From Apus apus (Eukaryota; Chordata; Aves; Apodiformes; Apodidae), in assembly GCF_020740795.1 (NCBI RefSeq), contig NC_067300.1:1922001-1986000 (forward strand): 64,000 nucleotides of DNA, written 5' to 3'. This document shows, piece after piece, positions 34,430 through 61,841 of the stretch (its first letter is position 1; each line of letters begins with the position of its first letter). The position numbers were made by a program, and so were the translations under genes. The notes under the pieces are model-generated. The model had not been told where the DNA came from. It did not search any database and saw nothing but the letters and a program-made list of their open reading frames with translations.

Positions 34430-36341
<1,912 letters not shown>

Positions 36342-36411
36342 GATGGCGGCTCAGCTCCCCGACCCAGCCCGCTCCTCTCAACCGACTGCCTGCGTGAGGC
36401 AACCGCCACCC

Positions 36412-48004: not shown

Positions 48005-51000
48005 TCAATTGTCATCAAAAACACTGCTGTTCCTGTCACTGGGGCTGTTCTCCTTGACCATCACTCGGTACGAGATGCGCATGAAGGAGCCAGTGAGCAG
48101 CACAACAAAGAGGATGAGGAGCAAAGACCAGACCCCTGGTTCAATCCCCTTGAGGAAGCTTGGGCTGTCCTTGGGGATGGTGTTGGTCAGATTCAGCAGG
48201 TACCCAAGAGTCCAGCCAGATGATGGATCACCCATCTGTGGAGTTAAGAAGGAGGAGAGGTCAGAAGTGAAGACAGCTGGACCCAGCTGTGTTCCTGTGC
48301 ACAGGCCCAAGGCCTCGTGTGCCTTATTTGAGACTGAGCCAAGGATTAGGCTTGAAATGAGGAGCTCTCCCAGCTGAGTGCACTAATAGGCCCTCACTGC
48401 CCTGACCAGTCTCACCTGGGACTTCCACCCCTTCCATGGGCCTGGGAGCTCCATTTAAGCTCTGGCCTGGGCAGCCATCTCCTTTTCCTGAGCAGCCATT
48501 CCTTTCCTGAGCTATAGGTGTGTGCTGTTCCTTCTTCTGCTCACTGACTGGTTGTCTCAGGTCTACATTGTGGGTAGTTCCATCTCTGGCCCTGTTGCCT
48601 GGTTGAACCTCAGACCTATGTTGTAGGCTCCCTGGATGGACCCTGGACCTGCCTTGCCTTAGTCTGCTGGTCAGCACTGGCTGCCCTGCTGTCCCTGAGG
48701 TGGTCCCTGCTCAGTGGGACTCTGCCTGGGCTGGCGAGTTGTGAAGAGGGCTGGGAATGGGCTTTCATTCCTTTTGTGAAGGGCAGGACCCAAATAAAAT
48801 GCCCCTGTCCTTAGGGGCTCCTCATCCTGAAGGAATTTCAGAGCTTATAAGCCAGTTATGAATCCTCACTAGTAGAAAGGTGGTTGCAAGGGGGTAGGGC
48901 AGCTTCTTTTGGCTCAGGAAGTACTATCAGCAGTTTGTCCTTAGCATGAAGTGCTGATCAGGTCATACTTCCTTCCCTCTTGGGCACAGACTCTCAAAGA
49001 AGATATTGCTCCAGATGAGGTTTTGACTCCTATTTTCCAGTGGGGACAAGTGGAATCTCTAGCTCTCTGACACTGGTTTTCTTCCTTATCATAATTGTGA
49101 GCTTATTTTGGAAAAAAAACATCTTGCTGGAGAAGCCCAGCTGGTCAGGGCCTGTGGGAGCAGGCCAGGTTGGCTTTACTGAAACCAGCCCTCCCTTGTA
49201 ACTGGAAATACCACAATGCAGGTGACTGACCTTCTTCTGGAATGCAGTCCAAACAGACCCATCAAAGTCAAATGTGTATCCCTGTGTACTGAGATGAAAG
49301 ATGAAGGCAGACACAAGGCAGTAATCAGCAAGGGTGTCCAGGCTTCTCTTGGACTCCTTGACCAGCTGGTGTCATTTCCAAAAGAAGATGGGGGGGGGAA
49401 AAAAAGAGGTAAATATTCAGTAGCTGACTTTCAGGCTTGCTGTAACCTCTGCTTTCCTGCTCTGGGCCTGACTGTGGGACTGGTTTGTGTCCTGAGCAGA
49501 CTGAAATGGCATCTATCTCCTGGGCTGTGGTCTGGGAACCCGTGTCAGCTCTTAGTGCCTTGGTTCCCATCTTATTACAGACCAGGCAGCTCCAAGAGCT
49601 GCAGGACTGGCAGCCAGGTCTCCTGCAATTGCCTTGCAGGGGAACTGCTTGGTCTGACTCTCTGCTCTCTAATTAGGCTGAGCTGATGCCACAGCCTTTC
49701 TCTTAACAGGAACATTAATGAGAGAGGGAGATGGTTATGGGCTTTGCTACCCCATTAGCAAACCCTGTAGAAATTGCCCAGTTTGAAGGTTACTGTGAGT
49801 GCTCAGTCAGTGCAGATCAGCACTCCTCAGTGTGCTCCTCAGCCACCAACTGAGGAAAGAACTTGGAAGTTCCCTTGGCTTGGTCTCCATGGGCCCTGGA
49901 GATGGGGAAAGCCCTGGAGTCTGAGTGGATCTGTTCCTTGCACTTGAGGAGTGAGCAGAGAGCCTTCCTGTTTACTCTGTAATAGGCAGTAGAAGGTTCT
50001 TGTGGCTTTTCATTGAATTAAGTCCAGGTGTTACCAGCAGCAGCTGGGATTTGAGAGGAAGGGAAATAAGTGGAGCCTGTTTCCTCAAAGTAGAAAAACC
50101 AAAAACCAGGTGAATCCAAGTTTTCCCCTGAGGGAGCCTGTAAGTTATGGCTGGGTCAGTCTGAGCCCCATGGGTTTTTGTAACAAACTGCTCCTTGCTT
50201 CCCACTCTCCCTGCACACAAAGTTATTCCACAGTTACCTCTTTGGCAGACATCCCACACAGCCTGTTGACTGCCTGACCCAAATCAGGAGAGGGCACAAC
50301 TTCTCTCATGAAGTCCATGGCCTCAGAGATCACCTACAACAGCAGCAGAAGAAATGATCAGTGACTGTAGGAAAGTGTGAGCAGCTGTGGGGCAGGTTGA
50401 TGGGTGCCTTCCTGGTGGGCCTGTGGTGGTGGTTATGGGGTCTCTGGTGGTGGTGCAAGGAAGACAAGCAGCTCTGTTGCTGCCTGGAGGTGGAGACAGG
50501 ACAGTTCCTACCTTGCATGCAGGTAGGAACCTTCCTGGCCCTGCCTGAGTAAATAGACTAGTACAGATGCTCCTTGGCACCGTGTCCATGGAAGGCTCTC
50601 AGGAGCAGGGAGCTGTGGAAATTTCCATAATTCCTCCCTCTGAAAAACACTCAGTTTGTTCTAGGATCTTGAAGTGGCCCTGGCTTAACAACCCAATGAC
50701 TTTGGACACTAGGTCCAGGGGCTCAGGGATGAGCATGCTTGTGGGTGGGAGATGCCCACATGTTTGTTAAAGGATCTTCAGCTTTACTACAGAGTTGGTG
50801 TGGGAAGACCTGCTCAGCATGCAACTCCTGGCTGTTCTATCCCCACTGGCTCTGTGGAGCTCCAAAGTTTCTCTTGCAGGCAGACATTGCTGAGACATGG
50901 ATAAAGAAAAGCCCTGTCATAGTCATTGCTGGGAAGCCTGTGGTCCATATTTGACCAGCTGCATGCCAATGAGGGGGAGAGGGCAGGAGTGGCCAGAGGA

Positions 51001-54000
51001 GATCATGAAGATGATGGGAGGGCTGGAGCAGCTCTGCTCTGGAGACAGGCTGGGAGAGTCGGGGTGTTCACCCTGGAGAAGAGAAGGCTCCAGGGAGACC
51101 TTAGAGCACCTTCCAGTGCCTGAAGGGGCTCCAGGAAAGCTGGGGAGGGGCTTGGGACAAGGGCAGGGAGGGAGTGGACAAGGGGAATGGATTAAAACTG
51201 GAAGAGGGGAGATTTAGGTGAGATATTAGTAAGAAGTTCTTTAGTGTGAGGGTGGTGAGAGCCTGGCCCAGGTTGCCCAGGGAAGCTGTGGCTGCCCCTT
51301 CCCTGGCAGTGTTGAAGGGCAGGTTGGATGGGGCTTGGAGCAGCCTGGGCTGGTGGGAGGTGTCCCTGCCCATGCAGGGGGTTGGATCTAGATGATCTTG
51401 AAGGTCCCTTCCAACCCAAACAAATCTAGGAGTGCATGTGTGCAGCACTAGCCAGGGCACTGGCCCTCTTGGCTAGCACAGAGCCCAGCGTGGCTGTTCC
51501 CTCTGTATTTTTTAATGCTCAAACCAGTCCCATTTCCTGTGGTTTTCACACCACTTGCATACCCAAGTGTAAATGAGAACCCACCAAAAACCTGGTCCGG
51601 AGGGGCTTGGAAACACTGCTGAGGGAATGGTTGGAGAAGCTGCAGGAGGAGGAAGAGCTGAGCAGGCTCTGCACGAGGCTGGTGCAGGCGGTGGGATCGC
51701 TGGAGCCGGTGATGTTGAAGATCTCCTCAGGGCCAGGGATGTCCAGTGTGTCACCACTGACAGCACAAGGCCCGGCGTGCACGGACTGCCACTGCACCTC
51801 CTGGGAGTAGGTGAGGGGCCAGCAGGGGTTAGACACAGCTGTAGCACTTCTCTGGTCCTAGAGACAATACAAGAAGGACAGAGGCCGCAAGAGAGGGTTT
51901 GGTGTCTCAGGGCTTCACAAAGGAGGACAAAATGCGACACAGTCATTGATCTGGCACGTTCATCAATGTTGTCATTGAGCAGGCAGGCTGCAGATGTTTC
52001 CCAAACCTTCTCTCAGTTCATCAACTGCAAGGCCCAGATGGATGCAGCTCCTGCAGGGTGCAGGGGAAGCTGCAGTCACTGGACCTGCTGGGGGAGGCTG
52101 AGGTGTCCCAGCCCCACCTGCTCACCCTTCGACCAAAAATGCAATTTCCATGAATCCTGTGCTCTTTCTAATTTGAAAGAAGAGGCTGTGCTGGTCTGCC
52201 TTTCAAATTGCAGATTTGTTCTGCTTGGAAAAGAGCTTTAAGATCATCAAGTCCAACCATAAGCCAACTCTACCAGGTGTAGTGCTAAACCATGTCACAG
52301 AATCAGAGAATGGTTTGGGTTGGAAGGGACCTTAAAGACAATTTAGTTCCACCCCTGCATGGGCAGGGGCACCTCCCACCAGCCCAGGTTGCTTCAAGCC
52401 CCATCCAACCTGCCCTTCAACACTGCCAGGGATGGGGCAGCCACAGCTTCCCTGGGCAACCTGGACCAGGATCTCACCACCCTCATAGTGAAGAATTCTT
52501 TCCAATGTCTAACCTAAATCTCCTCTCTTTCAGTTCTGATGTCCCTCAGCACCACATCTATAGGCCGTTTAAACACCTCCAGGGGTGGTGATTCAACCAC
52601 CTCCCTGGGCAGCCTGTGCCAGTGGCTCAACCCCTGAAGAACCAGTGTTCAGGAATTCCCCAGTATGAAGCTGTGATGAAGTGGGTCTTCATGTGGGACG
52701 TTCAGGTCCCAGAGAGGGAAGGTGTGGTTCCTAGGGAGGCAAGGGGATGTGCAGTGAGTAGTTTATCTCTGAAAATTAGATTTTGGTGGAGACTAAAATG
52801 GCTCGTGAGTTTGCATCAGATCCTGCCCCCTCCAAGTGAAATCAAGTTTGGAAGAACCAAAACACCTGCATGTTTTCCAAATCAAGTGTTGCTTTTTGAA
52901 AGATGCTTCAGGGTTAATGTCAGCAAAGGAAACGCCCCTCGGGGAGGGTCCTGGTTGGTTCCCAGGTGCTGCTGGTTAGGCTGCCCTAGGTTGGAGGGGC
53001 AGTTCAGAGGAGCCAAGGGAGGCCTTTGCCTCTCTTCACCCTAAAGGTGACCTTAGCACCTCTGGAGGGCAGTTTTAAGCTCGTGTGTGTGAAGGAAGAG
53101 CCTGCAGGTAGGAAACTGTGTGTGGCTGCTCGGGGGGCACCGACTGAGGCACAGAGAGTATGTTTTCCAAGTGCACTGGGCTTTTTTAGACACATGCAAA
53201 TGCCTTCTCCTAGTGATTGACATTTTGCCCCTTTTGCTACACCCTGTGAAGCTGCTGTTTAGTGATATTGTATCCAGGATCCTTGCAGGTGCCCTTCTGG
53301 CAGGTACTCACCTGGATGAGCCTGGAGAGCAGCCGGTGGCGGAGTTGCTCTGTGGTGTGGCAGGGGCAGGGCTGAGTCTGCACCTGGTGTGTCTGCCCGT
53401 ACAGCTGCAGCCTCACTGCCTCCTTGGGTGCCTGCTTCTCTCCTTCCACCTTGGAAGTGAGCTGTGTTGAGGTTCCTCCCACGGACAGGACTCCTGCCAT
53501 CCCCTTCCTGGATGGGACCAACTGCCCTCGCCAGTCGTACTGACCCAGAAAGAACCAGAGAGGACAGGTCTTAAGAATTCTACACCTGAGTCACAGATGC
53601 AAGCATTAGTGCACAGAGGGAGAAAGCAGCTCTCTGGTGCTGTACAGCCTGACTTTTATTCCCCCTCTCCCCCCACAGGACCTAAGGATGGTGAACTGGT
53701 GGCTTTGGAGGGAGCAGGAGCCGTTGCACAAGCACTTCTCACAGCCAGCAAGAGCTCACGGCCCTGGATGGCTGCTCAAGGCACTGGTTTCAGCAGGTAT
53801 GAGCAGGGGAGAGAGGAGAGGGGTGGTGGTGAGGAACAGGAGGGAGGTTTCCAGGTGGGCAGTTGTGGGCTTCAAGTGCTGCCTTGAAGCTGAAGTGATC
53901 CTCCTGCTGAAGAACCCTGTGGTTTCATCTCTTGCAGAGATGATCCAGGCAAAGTTCTCAGCACAAAGAGGAGAGTTCAGGTGGGTGTGAGCACTCTGGC

Positions 54001-57000
54001 CCTGGCTGGGGAGCCTGTGTTGCTGCCAGCAGGGCTAGCAGTTCCCTAACTAGTGCCTGCTTGCTGCTGGTTATCAGGACTACCTTTCACTTCCCTGATG
54101 TGGAATAACTCGGTCTAACCCACCTTTTCCTGCCCTTTGAGTTCTTCTTGACACCCTTTGGCTGGAGAAGCCATGGGTAGAGCAAGGAAAGTAAATGTGT
54201 TCTTTGTTTAGCAAGTGCCTTCTGAACACAGAGCAGGCCCCATGCTGGGACACCCAGCTGTGCTCCAACTCCTGGTGAGGGGAAATGTGATGGGCTTTTG
54301 TTTTGGCAGCAAAAGCCTCTGCTCTTCTGCCCCCATGCACAGGATGCTGTGTGGGACAGCTGGGCTCCAGCAGCAGCAGTGCCTGCTTGACAGCAGTGCT
54401 GAGCTCAGAGCTGGGCAGTTCTTTTTCCCCAGGACCAGGCTGTGTAAGGTCACCTCTGGGAGCACCCTGGATGTGTCATCCAGAAAGCCTCACATCTGTA
54501 AGGGTTTCTGCCTGAACATGTCCACAAAAGGCTGTGTTAAAGCTTTGTTCCTTCAGCCTAGCTATAACCATCTCACCTTATGTCCCCCAGCCAGCTGATG
54601 TGGGACATAACCTGCCCCCTCTGCAAGGCAGTTGTGCTTAAGCATTGTTTGAATGACCCCTCCACGTGTCTCTGTGGCTGTTTGTTCCTGGCAGGTGCTC
54701 AGCTGAGCTCTGCACTCCCCAGGCAGGGCTGTTCCTTTACCTTGAAGAAGTTCTCCAGGACATAGTTAATGGCAACCCAGTTGAAGGCTTCCTTGTCTTG
54801 GCTGGACAGGATTTGTGCCCCCTGAAAGTCAAAGGGGGATGACTTCAGGGCCACAGCCAGGGCAGCAGGGAGACCATCAGAGAGGGCAGGATGGCTGAGG
54901 CTACACAGAAAAGAAAAAGAAGGCACATTTGTTGTTACAGGGCCCTGCCAGGGGCAGGCTGCAGTGGGGGCACAGCTGCAGGGCTTCTGCTCTGCTCCCC
55001 ACTTTGGGTTGTAGCACAGAGACACGGTGACAATCCCACTCCTGCTGCTGCTTCTTCTCTCTCCCCTCACGTGGCACTGGGGGCAAGAGCAGCAGAGGGA
55101 TGATTTGAGCAGTTGTGCCACCGTTCAAGTTTGGGAGCTTAGGAGGCCCTGCCACTGAGGGGATTCTGTGGCCTTGCCCCACTGACCTGGTCCCCTCAAG
55201 ACCTTCCTTTTCCCCTGGGTCTAAAAGGAGGCAAAGGTCCCAATAATGAGGTGACTGAGAACAAGATCCACAAAAGTGTGTATGATGAGGGGGCTCTTCC
55301 CACCACCATTCCCAACCTGCTGACAAGGAGCACCCCTGCAAGCCCAGGTGGGTTGTCACATACACTGAAAACCCTTTAGCTCCCAGACCTGGGTGTTTTA
55401 CCCAGCACTAATTCCTCGTGGCTGCTTGTGAGGACAGTGTGGAGACACAGCCCTGCTGTGCTCCCCTGGAACACATGGGGACCTGTGGAAGGTTTACCTG
55501 ACTAGCAGCTTAGGGGTGGAACACACTGCAGAGCAGACAGGGTGAGGTGCATTTAGGGAATGATCCACATGGCGTGTGCTGATCTCTGGGTGTGGGTTTG
55601 CAACATTCACTCACTTCAGCTGCCCCGTGCTGGCGGTTGCTCCCAGGTAGAGAGGGGTTTGGCTGTGCTGCTCTGCTGGGATCTCTTTCTGGGCCCAGTT
55701 CAGACATGGCTCCAAGCTCTTCCCAGCTTTCTGAGGAGAATCCAAGTAGCTGGAGACTCCCAGATCTGAAGACAGAGGGGGAAATAATGAAATTTTCTAA
55801 GGAAAGGTTTGGGAGAAGTGTGAGAGCTGTTATCCCAAGAGGTTGCTGCCTTGGGCATGGTTAAAGAGGACCTCTCACAGCAGAATGAAGTTCTTCCAAG
55901 TGGCTGTCCGGCTAAAATATGGTGCTGGGAGCCAAATGTGTGTGTGTAAATGCCAAATTGGAGTGAGAGAACCTGGCTCTGCTGCTGGGACATCCCCTGT
56001 GTGGCCTCAGCCACGGGACTGCTGCAGCAGGGGGTGGCTCAGCCCACAGAGGAAGAAATGTGGCTTTAGCCACTATGCGAGATAAGCCAGAGGACACGGT
56101 GTCATGCAGGTGGAGCTGAGACAAACGTCAGCTCTGTCCTCCAGCCACTTCCTGCTGTGTTGGTGGGGGTGGCTTCTGAGCCTGCAAGCGAGATGCCTCT
56201 GCTCTAGAGGCAGCTGGTGCTGTGCAGAGGGAAGCTGTGTGCAAGCCTTGGCTCCTGTCCAGATTCAATGGGGTCTTAAATGCTGGTTCTGAGGTACTAC
56301 CCAGAAGGAGCTTCACTTCCCCATCCTCTGGCTCTCACCACATGCTGTGCTCCCCTGGGCCCTGTCTGGGCTGAGCTGCATCTTGCCTCCAGCTGCTGAA
56401 AGGCCACACTGCCCTGCAGACAGAGACTGCTTTGCACTTCTGGGCAAGAGACCTGCCTGGACCTCCTGCTGCTGCTGACAAACTGCTGCACTGAGCTGCA
56501 GTTCCTGTTTCTGGCCCAGCCAGGGAACATGGCAGCAGTCAAGGGACACATACAAGGTTTCAGGGAGCTCCTGTTGCATCTTCTTTGTGGGGTTTGTTTT
56601 GCTTACAGTCTTCAAGGGCACAAACCCTCTTCCCTGCTTGTGCAGCTGCCCTCCCACAGCACATGGAGCTGAGAGTTCAGGGCTTCCCAGCATCCTGCTA
56701 TAATCAGGTTTCAACATCAAAGCAAGATTGAGAGATAGAGAAAGAAAGCCCAAGCATTCGTGCATGAAACCCTTCCAGCTGGCTTTGGCAGGGCTGAACT
56801 GCTTCAAACTAGTGAGGAAGACCCCAATATCCTCCAAGCTGTAACACCTAAAACCAAGATGAACTCGTGCTTGTGCTGTCAGACCCCACGTGGGGGTTGG
56901 AGTCTTGGCACCACTGGTGGAGCTACACCATGTATTGTCCAGGGTACAGTCAAGAGGAGGCAGAAGATACCAGGAGTCACCCTGCAGCCAGATTTATTTC

Positions 57001-60000
57001 TGTTGCTTTTCACTATCTCATCTGGGTGAGAAGCTCTGCCAGTGATCCATGTGAGCACCAGGACCAGCCCCATCCTCTCTGTGTGCCTCCCAGCCTGCTG
57101 CAGGCCAAAAAACAAGTCACCTGCTACTGCCAAGTGCTCTGATGTCCAGTTGTGTGGCTAAATCTGCCTGTGTCAGGAAGTCTCATGCTGAAAATAAGCA
57201 GCTTGTTCTTCACTGTCACCACTCAGTGTGCAGCTGGATGGTCCAGGAGCCAAGGAACTTGCAGCAATGGTCCAGACACAGATCTCTGGGCTTCCATCCA
57301 TCCCATGCCAGCCCCTCAGACCACCAAGCATGAATCAGGCACCTTACCTGGCACAGGACAGGAGCTCCAGTCCCTGATCACCCCGGTCTTGTTCACCTTG
57401 GTAGTGGTCCACTGGTAGATGAACAGGATGGTGTGGGATGGGCCAGCATCCAGAACAATTCCATACTGGAAAACCCCAAAAACATTCCAGGTAAACACTA
57501 CTGAAATGCACCTTGCTTTGTATTGGTAGGGTTACTCAGCAGTTTGTAGGTGCTCTGGGTAACCCACGGGTCTGCACTGCAGTGTTTGAGTTGGCTTTTT
57601 ACATTCAATGAATGAGTGAAGCCAGAAGATGATCTGGGTTTGCAGGGAACCATCTGCACTTCTGAATATGCATGAGGGGTGGCAGAGCAGAGAGACACCC
57701 AGAAACACATCAGAGCTCCAGTGGCAGGCTCTGTAGCTGTTCCTGAAACCAGGCACAGGGCTTCCACTGAGAGCTGAGCCACCTGGAGCTCAGGAAAAAA
57801 AGGTCCTAAAGCAGAGGGAGATGGCACTATCCAGGCTCTTGGCTGATTCTGGGCCTCAAACTGCTGCCAGGTTGGTTTGCTAAAGCTTTTGTGCAGGAAC
57901 CAGAGGGCTGCAGCTTGCTCCTGCTTCTGAGGACCCCCAGGCTCCCATGTCTGTTTGATGCCCCACTGCAGAGCTGGTGTGACACGGGCTGGGTTTGTCC
58001 CCATGCCTGCCAGACCTGTGGGAGCTGCAGCACATTGTGACCAACCAGCAGACCCACTGTCCGGGGCAGCAGCCCCACGGAGACCAAGATAATGTCAGAA
58101 GCAGCAGCAGCAAATGTGAGACTTCTCAACAGCTTGTCCACTGCCAGCTCTCCTGTGTCCTAGCAGGGAGGCCCAGGGCTTTCTCAGCGAGTCATTGGGG
58201 CTGGAAGGGACCTGTGAAGATCATCTGGTCCAGCCCCTCTGCTAGAGCAGGGTCACCTACAGCAGATCCCACAGGAACACATCCAGGTGGGTTTGGAATG
58301 TCTGCAGAGAAGGAGACTCCACAGCCTCTCTGGGCAGCCTGTCCCAGGGCTCTGTTAAACTCACAGTAAAGAATTTTTTCCTTGTGTTTAACTTGAGCCT
58401 CCTGTGCTCCAGCTTGTGCCCATTGCCCCTTGTCCTGTCCTTGCTGGAGTCTGGCCCCACCCTCCTGACGCCCCCTGTGTGTATTTATAAGCACTGATGA
58501 GAATCAAAGAATCATTAAGGATGGAAAAGACCTTCAGGATCATCAAGTCCTATACCCTATCACTAAATCTTCTCCTGAAGCACCATGTTTACCTGGTTTT
58601 TGAAAACCTCCAGGGATGGTGCCTCCACCCCTCAGAGAGACCCCCCCTTCAGGCTGAACAGCCCCAGGGCAGGTGCTTCAGTCCCCCCATCATCTTTGTG
58701 AGCTGAGCCGGACTCTCTCCAGTAGCTCCTTGTCTTAGTCTCTTTGCAGCCCAGTCTGGTCTCTTTGCTGCTGACCAAGCCTTGCTGAGCTGCACCTCGT
58801 ATGTGAGGGTTAGGAAATGAGAAGTCAGTGCTCTGTGGCTGTGCTGCAGGTTCCCACACTCAGAATAGCCCTGATGGTAGCCAAGGGTCTCCTCCTCCCC
58901 CCTCCATTACATGACCCCAAACTGGGACATCTACACAGACAGGAAGCAACTCATGGGACCTGGGAGGTAGGTGGCAGTGCACAGTCTCAGCTGTATCCTG
59001 CACAGAAACAGTTGTTATCTGGGGCTGAAGAGGAGGAGAAACCTCCTGAGAGGTTGATGTTGACATGGTCAGAAGGTGTTTTAGCACAAGACCTTCCTGG
59101 GAGCTCCCAGCTACACCAGTCAGCGCCTGGGCCAGGAACTGGTGGGATTGGAGCTGGAGCAGAAATGTGGAAGGAGGATGGAGCTCCCTGCCTGAGCCTG
59201 CTGCCATCCTGTGAGTGACAGCTCCTGTTTCTTGCTGCTACACCAGCTGCCTCAGAAGAGGAAGAAATGAATTGGTGTTGGTGGAAAAACCCGGATTATT
59301 TTTTTTTCCCTTCACAAAACCAGAGGCTGCTCCTCAGAGCACAAAGGAGAAGAGATCCCTGCCTTTCTGCCCCAGCTCAGCACCAGGGAATGACAGAGCA
59401 TGGAGCAATAAGGTGTCTTGTTTTGTTTTGTTTTGTTTTGTTTTAATCCAATGCTGTTTCTTGGAGCAGTGTGGAGGAGGGGTGGCATCTAAACCTGCAG
59501 GTTAACCTACTTCTGCTTGATGACACCATCAGTGCCACGGGGCTCAGCTCAGCCTGCAGCAAGAGGCAGAGTGGATGGGCATTAACCCCCTGGTCACCAC
59601 CAGCAGGTTGGCTCTGCAGTTAAAATCAAGGACAGAAGAAGAGAAAGCATGGAAGAGGATATTTATTTAAGACACAAGCAGCAGGTCAGGGCCAGATTCC
59701 CACAGACTTTCAGGAGGGACCTAGCACTTTCCCTCCACTGGTTGCTGGCTGCTCTGGGGTAGCTCTACGCCTGGACTGTCTCTCCTCAGCCTGTGGTGGG
59801 CATCTCTGCTGATCCGTGGACCATATCCAGCCTGTACTTCCCTGACCAGCCAAAGGGACTGCCTTGCTTTTGGTTGGAAAAGCTACAGCATGTTGAAGGA
59901 TGCCAACCTGTCCCCTCCTCAGCCTGCGCTCCGGGCTCAGTAGCGCAAGGAATGTGAAAAGCAACAAACCAGACCCGTTTAAATTCCCAGCTTGCACAAG

Positions 60001-60198
60001 GAAACAGGCAGGTTCTCCTTAAGCAGCAGCCCCACCAACAAGGAGAAGATCCTCTGCTTATTGCCCCGGCTTGGCTGCTCTTACCTTGGTCCTGAGAGGT
60101 GGGATGGGCACATCTTTGGTGGAGACACAGAGCAGCACGATGCCCGTCAGCCCGGCTGTGATCACCAGCCACGGGGGCAGCAGCTCCCGCCAAGACAT
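48005..60198 (-). CDS. ENTPD2/8-type ectonucleotidase homologue with degenerate active site, 9 exons, complete
   Basis: Homologue of cell-surface NTPDases, which hydrolyse extracellular ATP/ADP. Exons in coding order: 60198-60085, 57465-57348, 55765-55615, 54900-54741, 53539-53312, 51857-51585, 50333-50238, 49365-49231, 48235-48005. Frames and GT/AG junctions all join, giving 501 residues (human ENTPD2 about 495). N-terminal membrane helix about 7-26, C-terminal helix about 460-477, ectodomain between; sequons NKT, NIT, NHS and NLT. Exons 2-5 and 8 appear to have the same lengths as human ENTPD2. The apyrase regions are damaged: DAGPSHT (residues 44-50) for DAGSSHT; GATASTGQL (119-127) for GATAGMRLL; QDKEAFNW (162-169) for QEEGVFGW; LSVGGTSTQ (199-207) for MDLGGASTQ; no FSAFFY. 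The catalytic glutamate is K164 and the catalytic aspartate S200. It is probably a pseudoenzyme; early pseudogenisation is the alternative. ENTPD2 versus ENTPD8 orthology is unresolved; the N-terminus favours ENTPD2. Confidence 0.85.
50985..51432 (+). mobile_element. CR1 LINE 3' fragment in an ENTPD-like intron
   Basis: Carries the GGAGCAGCTCTGCTCTGGAG text and ends at GTCCCTTCCAACCCAAAC. Its right end is about 150 bases from ENTPD-like exon 6. Plus orientation. Confidence 0.85.
52218..52640 (-). mobile_element. Older CR1 copy interrupted by a younger CR1 (nested)
   Basis: The outer copy runs from about 52218 to 52292 and resumes at 52541 with text that continues it (CAGCACCACATCTATAGG, then AAACACCTCCAGGGGTGG). 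The inner copy, about 52297-52538, begins ACAGAATCAGAGAATGG and belongs to a different subfamily. ATGTC flanks the inner copy on both sides. Both are in minus orientation. Confidence 0.8.
58188..58494 (-). mobile_element. CR1 LINE 3' fragment in ENTPD-like intron 1
   Basis: Begins with GGGGCTGGAAGGGACC and includes CACAGGAACACATCCAGG. Minus orientation, directly followed by another CR1. Confidence 0.85.
58500..58790 (-). mobile_element. Second CR1 LINE fragment abutting the first
   Basis: A different subfamily begins at AATCAAAGAATCATTAAGG only a few bases after the previous copy. Minus orientation; the distal part is diverged. Confidence 0.75.
59419..59445. repeat. (GTTTT)n microsatellite
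   Basis: Five uninterrupted GTTTT units in ENTPD-like intron 1. Such tracts are common. Confidence 0.9.
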
Positions 60199-61585: not shown

Positions 61586-61690
61586 CTTTCCTTACACTTG
61601 GGCTGGCAAAGCTCTGCTTTCCAAAGGGGATGGGGATTAAACTGCTGGAGTGCTGACAGCCTCCCTGCCCCTGCTCTCAGGGCTGCCCAG

Positions 61691-61841
61691 GACAGGCAGC
61701 AGGAGGACAGGCAGCAGGACAGGCAGCAGGACAGGCAGCAGCAGGACAGGCAGCAGGACAGGCAGCAGGACAGGCAGGAGGACAGGCAGCAGGAGGACAG
61801 GCAGCAGGACAGGCAGGAGGACAGGCAGCAGGACAGGCAGC
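61691..61841. repeat. 12-bp minisatellite
   Basis: About twelve tandem copies of GACAGGCAGCAG, three of them followed by an extra triplet (GAG or CAG). All spacings are multiples of three, so an open frame persists on both strands. Confidence 0.95.

Follow-up and report, generated by a model that had tools for sequence, protein, structure and literature searches.

An ENTPD2-like gene in Apus apus appears to encode an old NTPDase pseudoenzyme whose conservation is concentrated in its membrane helices

The stretch of DNA analyzed here (the window; 64,000 nucleotides of Apus apus, NCBI RefSeq assembly GCF_020740795.1, contig NC_067300.1, positions 1,922,001 to 1,986,000 of the forward strand) carries an ENTPD-family gene of nine exons on its minus strand, from window position 60198 to 48005. 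This gene is the orthologue of ENTPD2L, which databases already hold as a predicted “ectonucleoside triphosphate diphosphohydrolase 2-like” protein. The locus almost certainly specifies a constrained gene product, and the explanation that we favor on balance is that of a conserved pseudoenzyme which acts via its membrane helices, most plausibly in company with catalytic NTPDases. A literature search, with most subscription papers outside its coverage, returned no description of ENTPD2L as a pseudoenzyme.

The nine exons, which measure 114, 118, 151, 160, 228, 273, 96, 135, and 231 nucleotides from 5′ to 3′, are separated by eight introns, all of the GT-AG type, and join into a coding sequence of 1,506 nucleotides which specifies 501 amino acids (aa) and a stop codon, with no internal stops, in agreement with the in-frame gene of a preliminary description made from the sequence. 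The G+C content at third codon positions is 0.713, compared to 0.50 to 0.55 in the gene's own introns. The product matches the Pfam family GDA1_CD39 (PF01150; E = 7e-55) across residues 37 to 447, its best relative of solved structure is rat NTPDase2 (E = 2.9e-97), and it is assigned to the NTPDase fold. Hydropathy identifies one N-terminal and one C-terminal membrane helix (peaks in 19-residue windows starting at aa 5 to 10 and 452 to 465), the arrangement of the surface NTPDases ENTPD1, 2, 3, and 8, and a structure model of the ENTPD2L of Chaetura places helices at residues 9 to 23 and 457 to 486. Because both helices are present, the earlier designation of the product as “secreted-face” can apply to the ectodomain only. 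Transcription of ENTPD2L is supported by full-length open reading frames (ORFs) on contigs of 3.0 to 3.3 kb (source “lgn”; P0014, P0015, and P0040, the last being 99% identical to chicken ENTPD2L isoforms), which are too short for a 12-kb gene and are thus read as assembled RNA.

A protein search with the window product gave 177 matches, of which the best 120 were listed. Eighty of these were of the ENTPD2L type (60 bird, 16 turtle, and 4 crocodilian rows, isoforms and fragments counted), and the other 40 were true ENTPD2 proteins of many tetrapods. The closest match listed, an ENTPD2-like protein of Chaetura pelagica (P0001; 95% identity), was sister to the window protein in a 61-row tree, in which ENTPD2L formed a clade of its own with a support of 100/100. 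A distinct ENTPD2 gene with intact catalytic motifs is present in the same genome (within G000:C20:242000-251000); given this gene and the separate ENTPD2L clade, the possibility that the window gene is itself the ENTPD2 orthologue was rejected. Among the eight exons which could be compared with the same-genome ENTPD2, whose exon 1 was not located, five (exons 2, 3, 4, 5, and 8) are equal in length and the phases agree, while exon 7 comprises 32 codons in ENTPD2L and 40 in ENTPD2. The five shared exon lengths claimed at the outset referred to the human gene; the gene compared here was the same-genome ENTPD2.

Active-site positions were numbered by alignment to rat NTPDase2, in whose structures we take D201 to be a metal ligand, Y350 to be the base-stacking residue, and S48 to be the P-loop serine. 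In the window gene, the first apyrase conserved region (ACR1), DAGPSHT (57430 to 57450), lies in exon 2 (57348 to 57465) and has Pro at the S48 position; ACR2 in exon 3 (55615 to 55765) reads GATASTG in place of GATAGMR; ACR3 in exon 4 (54741 to 54900) reads SSQDKEAF, with Lys at the E165 position (codon 54792 to 54794); and ACR4 in exon 5 (53312 to 53539) reads VLSVGGTSTQ, with Ser at the D201 position (codon 53483 to 53485), the same exon having Thr at the R245 position. The shortened loop is encoded by exon 7 (50238 to 50333), where Glu occupies the Y350 position (codon 50322 to 50324), and exon 8 (49231 to 49365) has Thr at the R394 position, while D45, H50, S206, Q208, and W436 are retained. 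This inventory agrees with that first drawn up for the window, and it leaves Pro, Lys, Ser, and Glu where a catalytic NTPDase has S48, E165, D201, and Y350.

Across the family, two classes of substitution can be distinguished (the site table covers 48 of the 60 bird rows, 10 rows shorter than 480 aa and rows P0064 and P0069 having been dropped). D201 is lost in all 75 ENTPD2L rows in which the column is present (80 rows checked, 5 without the column), where it is replaced by Ser (47), Thr (16), Ala (5), Leu (4), Val (2), or Ile (1), compared to Asp in 40/40 ENTPD2 rows. Among the 48 bird rows (all of at least 480 aa), 47 have Glu and 1 has Asp at the Y350 position, where Glu is also found in 10/11 turtle and 3/3 crocodilian rows; the surrounding loop is 29 residues long in 56/56 ENTPD2L rows, as opposed to 38 (35 rows) or 40 (1 row) in ENTPD2. 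Pro replaces S48 in 44/47 bird, 15/15 turtle, and 4/4 crocodilian rows, and G124 of ACR2 is Ser in 48/48 bird rows. Since the losses of D201, Y350, the loop residues, and S48 are common to birds, turtles, and crocodilians, they are old. The second class is variable: at the E165 position, the 48 bird rows divide into 27 with Glu and 21 with Lys, and 13/15 turtle and 4/4 crocodilian rows still have Glu; the H50 position, His in the window, is Arg in 32/47 bird rows; R126, the Arg of GMR, is lost in the window but kept in 44/48 bird rows; and G204 and M125 vary among orthologues. It would appear, therefore, that D201 and the base-binding loop were lost first and that the rest of the pocket drifted later, and differently in related birds. 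The decisive changes shared among orthologues are the loss of D201, Tyr350-to-Glu, and the nine-residue loop deletion, but neither E165K as a decisive loss nor the loss of R126 as a fixed change survives these counts, and R394T is a poor guide because its column varies in ENTPD2 as well (Arg in only 20/40 rows).

NTPDase catalysis is, on these grounds, very likely absent in ENTPD2L, and the binding of metal-nucleotide has probably been lost as well, since the metal ligand and the base-stacking Tyr have disappeared, and with them, in most rows, the P-loop serine. Separately, ACR1 of the chicken-like row P0040 reads GAGPSR, compared to DAGPSR in the chicken isoforms P0052 and P0054, so D45 may vary even within chicken, or the difference may be a sequencing error.

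Rat NTPDase2 has ten ectodomain cysteines, eight of which are kept in 48/48 bird ENTPD2L rows and a ninth in 47/48. The tenth, C328, whose equivalent is absent from exon 6 of the window gene (51585 to 51857; ectodomain lobe 2), is missing in 47/47 bird rows, all of which have gained a new Cys239 (codon 53366 to 53368, exon 5), while the opposite state occurs in 36/36 ENTPD2 rows and in 8 of 9 turtle or crocodilian ENTPD2L rows, the ninth having neither residue. The two changes amount to a single linked exchange that dates to the bird stem and may reflect a re-paired disulfide. At aa 71, 42/47 bird rows have an additional Cys; the five which lack it include the window protein (Trp, codon 57367 to 57369), Chaetura, and the hummingbird row P0029. 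Glycosylation sequons are conserved in bird rows at aa 63 (42/48), aa 128 (43/48), and aa 305 (47/48), but a sequon at aa 440 is kept in just 11/48. By protein-level proxies, ENTPD2L combines the loss of catalytic residues with retained purifying selection, and its classification as an intact, constrained pseudoenzyme, as first suggested for the window, is supported by the universal loss of D201, the kept cysteines, and a rate of change near that of ENTPD2.

The strongest constraint falls on the membrane-associated parts. Exon 1 (60085 to 60198) contains the start codon, the cytosolic segment MSWRELLPP, and membrane helix 1 (aa 8 to 27, 60118 to 60177, placed by hydropathy and conservation), and exon 9 (48005 to 48235) encodes the W436 region, membrane helix 2 (aa 460 to 482, 48065 to 48133), the cytosolic tail, and the stop codon. 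The ENTPD2L sequences in the region and rate analyses came from 47 birds (the window among them), 8 turtles, and 1 crocodilian, with helix 2 bounded at aa 456 to 478 for identities and at aa 460 to 482 for site rates and the matched-taxon ratio. Between birds and the crocodilian, represented by a single row for each protein, identity in the N terminus plus helix 1, helix 2, and the ectodomain is 0.91, 0.80, and 0.53 for ENTPD2L, compared to 0.57, 0.54, and 0.71 for ENTPD2; the corresponding bird-turtle values are 0.80, 0.70, and 0.55 versus 0.59, 0.56, and 0.70. Relative site rates in helices 1 and 2 are 0.44 and 0.36 in ENTPD2L, compared to 1.15 and 0.99 in archelosaur ENTPD2, a difference reached by 0 of 10,000 permutations. 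The ratio of helix to ectodomain change in ENTPD2L amounts to 0.35 of the ENTPD2 value (95% interval, 0.21 to 0.54) over nine matched taxa, which, like the taxon pairs used for overall rates, include two mixed genera (Dryobates/Melanerpes woodpeckers and Crocodylus/Gavialis); the swift is omitted from the nine because its ENTPD2 exon 1 was not found. The helices of ENTPD2L are thus far better kept than its ectodomain, the reverse of catalytic ENTPD2. Furthermore, 26 residues that are fixed in ENTPD2L (at least 97% of 56 rows) seldom occur in ENTPD2 (<20% of 36 rows); 15 of these lie within or next to the helices (aa 2 to 13 or 453 to 483), Trp3, Glu5, Arg478, and Tyr481 among them. Judged from such patterns, the membrane helices are likely to be the main functional part of the protein.

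NTPDase membrane helices are regulatory, and full activity of these enzymes needs oligomers, as described in passages of PMC7954995. A dead protomer whose helices are its best-kept part would be well suited to entering catalytic oligomers and tuning them. We propose that ENTPD2L would fold into the shape of an NTPDase and reach the cell surface, would not hydrolyze and probably not bind metal-nucleotide, would act through its membrane helices, and would form mixed oligomers with ENTPD2, ENTPD8, or ENTPD1, thereby changing their activity or surface level. Among the noncatalytic roles suggested in the preliminary description, nucleotide binding is unlikely given the missing metal ligand and base-stacking Tyr, while the regulation of a partner is favored because constraint is strongest in the helices. 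That the partner is an NTPDase is plausible, though we hold this more tentatively than the role of the helices themselves.

ENTPD2L could instead be a receptor, an adhesion protein, or a scaffold that uses its helices and short cytosolic ends to bind a membrane or cytosolic protein other than an NTPDase. This would account for the 15 of 26 lineage-specific residues located within or next to the helices. Against it, the passages of PMC7954995 describe homo-oligomerization as the sole assembly of the family, and the evidence names no partner for such a receptor or scaffold; we regard this explanation as rather unlikely, if the most serious of the alternatives. Less probable by some way is a neofunctionalized pocket, in which ENTPD2L would be a hydrolase or nucleotide binder of changed chemistry. 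The near-invariable retention of D45, S49, T122, and W436, the survival of R126 and Glu165 in many rows, and the fact that the Glu which replaces Tyr350 is itself fixed (98% of 56 rows) would suit this reading; a working pocket would, however, hardly be expected to tolerate the loss of D201 everywhere, to any of six residues, and the free variation of H50, M125, Q163, E165, and G204.

A dying gene, under relaxed selection and unbroken only by luck or through the selectivity of databases, is a very improbable reading of ENTPD2L. Approximately 0.05 stops per amino acid change would be expected in its coding sequence under neutrality, and the bird part of the ENTPD2L tree (22 tips) holds 2.09 changes per site, so that about 52 stops would be expected (0.05 × 2.09 × about 500 sites), while none is seen; this count serves as an argument rather than a probability, as the stop-free rows are intact by database selection and broken copies could be missing from them. 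The dying-gene explanation can draw on the same bias of protein databases toward intact models, on the varying former active site, and on a rate of change above that of ENTPD2 in most taxon pairs. It is opposed by the conserved ectodomain cysteines, by helices more conserved than those of working ENTPD2, by intact rows across turtles, crocodilians, and birds, and by two turtle pairs in which ENTPD2L evolves at 0.81 and 1.00 times the ENTPD2 rate; a pseudogene was, accordingly, set aside as very unlikely. Equally improbable is conservation of the helix exons for a DNA- or RNA-level reason (an overlapping regulatory element or antisense transcript). In its favor, the best-conserved parts are encoded by the exons at the two ends of the coding sequence, and the chicken passages of PMC8667585 place a long noncoding RNA (lncRNA) between TUBB4B and ENTPD2L. 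Within exon 9, however, constraint tracks helix 2 (relative rate, 0.36) and eases in the adjoining tail (0.85); an Rfam search of the window matched no family.

Several observations weigh against a helix-acting, constrained ENTPD2L. The ENTPD2L/ENTPD2 distance ratio has a median of 1.63 over 45 taxon pairs (range, 0.81 to 2.75), such that ENTPD2L is the faster in most of them; together with former active-site positions which change at 1.15 times the average, compared to 0.20 in ENTPD2, this indicates an ectodomain that is partly relaxed, although the active-site excess over other sites slow in ENTPD2 is borderline (permutation P = 0.04). Some helix comparisons fail to favor ENTPD2L: identity in helix 2 between turtles and the crocodilian is 0.67, as against 0.73 in ENTPD2, helix 1 among birds stands at 0.96 versus 0.97, and the cytosolic tail between birds and turtles at 0.35 versus 0.42. 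The lone crocodilian row behind each bird-crocodilian value and the middling confidence of the AlphaFold model of the Chaetura ENTPD2L (39 rows; mean predicted local distance difference test score, 66) belong to the same side of the argument, and conservation of the helices could serve trafficking.

The assignment of the window gene to ENTPD2L follows from its clade membership and from its tubulin neighbor, which matches the TUBB4B-ENTPD2L arrangement of chicken. This neighbor (34433 to 36350, minus strand), an orthology landmark outside the ENTPD2L gene, alone gave a match when ten of the longest window ORFs were compared with Pfam; we take it to be TUBB4B from its place and its C-terminal tail. 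On chicken chromosome 17, ENTPD2L adjoins TUBB4B with the lncRNA between them (PMC8667585); it serves there as a flanking landmark, the passages of that paper making no mention of its activity, and no essential difference was found between the chicken gene so described and the window gene, which share neighbor and clade. The ENTPD2L clade appears to be confined to birds, turtles, and crocodilians among the matches listed. A search with a turtle query likewise gave no squamate, mammal, or amphibian ENTPD2L among its 120 matches listed; its 31 newly listed rows comprised one turtle ENTPD2L (P0121) and 30 non-ENTPD2L proteins, all 30 of which keep S48, E165, D201, and Y350. The 61-row tree places ENTPD2L outside all tetrapod ENTPD2, but topologies uniting it with sauropsid ENTPD2 (P = 0.42) or archelosaur ENTPD2 (P = 0.361) pass the approximately unbiased test and the outgroup rows are fragmentary (19 to 45% of columns), so the duplication is left undated.

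Elsewhere in the genome, two inverted ENTPD8-like genes, L022 (G000:C20:843000-852500) and L023 (G000:C20:852500-861500), are 98 to 99% identical over about 3 kb of middle exons and differ in their last exons, a pattern suggestive of gene conversion or of a recent partial duplication. Another ENTPD8-like copy, which is divergent, lies in L024, and the identity of all three as ENTPD8, by likeness and place, is putative. Within the window, a tandem array of a CAGGACAGGCAG unit occupies 61688 to 61841, about 1.5 kb upstream of the ENTPD2L start codon.

Compared with ENTPD2 (NTPDase2), a surface ecto-ATPase known from rat structures 3cj1, 4bqz, and 4br5, ENTPD2L shares the fold, the two membrane helices, nine of the ten ectodomain cysteines, the exon phases, and five of the eight exon lengths. 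It differs in lacking D201, Y350, G124, usually S48, and nine loop residues, in occupying a separate locus, and in having more conserved helices and a less conserved ectodomain. Inactive NTPDase-family proteins have a precedent in mt-PCPH, an oncoprotein form of ENTPD5 which, according to passages of PMC3829800, has no detectable NTPDase activity by assay but exerts cellular effects. While mt-PCPH is one form of another family member, inactive by assay, ENTPD2L is an old lineage in three animal groups, and its inactivity is deduced from sequence.

Automatic annotation calls ENTPD2L a diphosphohydrolase, and datasets from birds, turtles, and crocodilians may therefore count it as an ATP-degrading enzyme, which it very probably is not. 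In its fullest form, the proposal is that the surface nucleotidases in these three groups have an old, dedicated regulatory subunit. As an inactive ENTPD whose role would have moved from pocket to helices, it would modify catalytic NTPDases and so set extracellular ATP signaling, with no counterpart in mammals; this is a possibility we advance tentatively, as less likely than its individual parts. If ENTPD2L does tune NTPDases, it would represent a regulatory subunit in a signaling pathway for which mammals seem to have no such subunit, and, with its pocket off and its helices kept, it would provide a natural test of the roles of NTPDase helices apart from catalysis.

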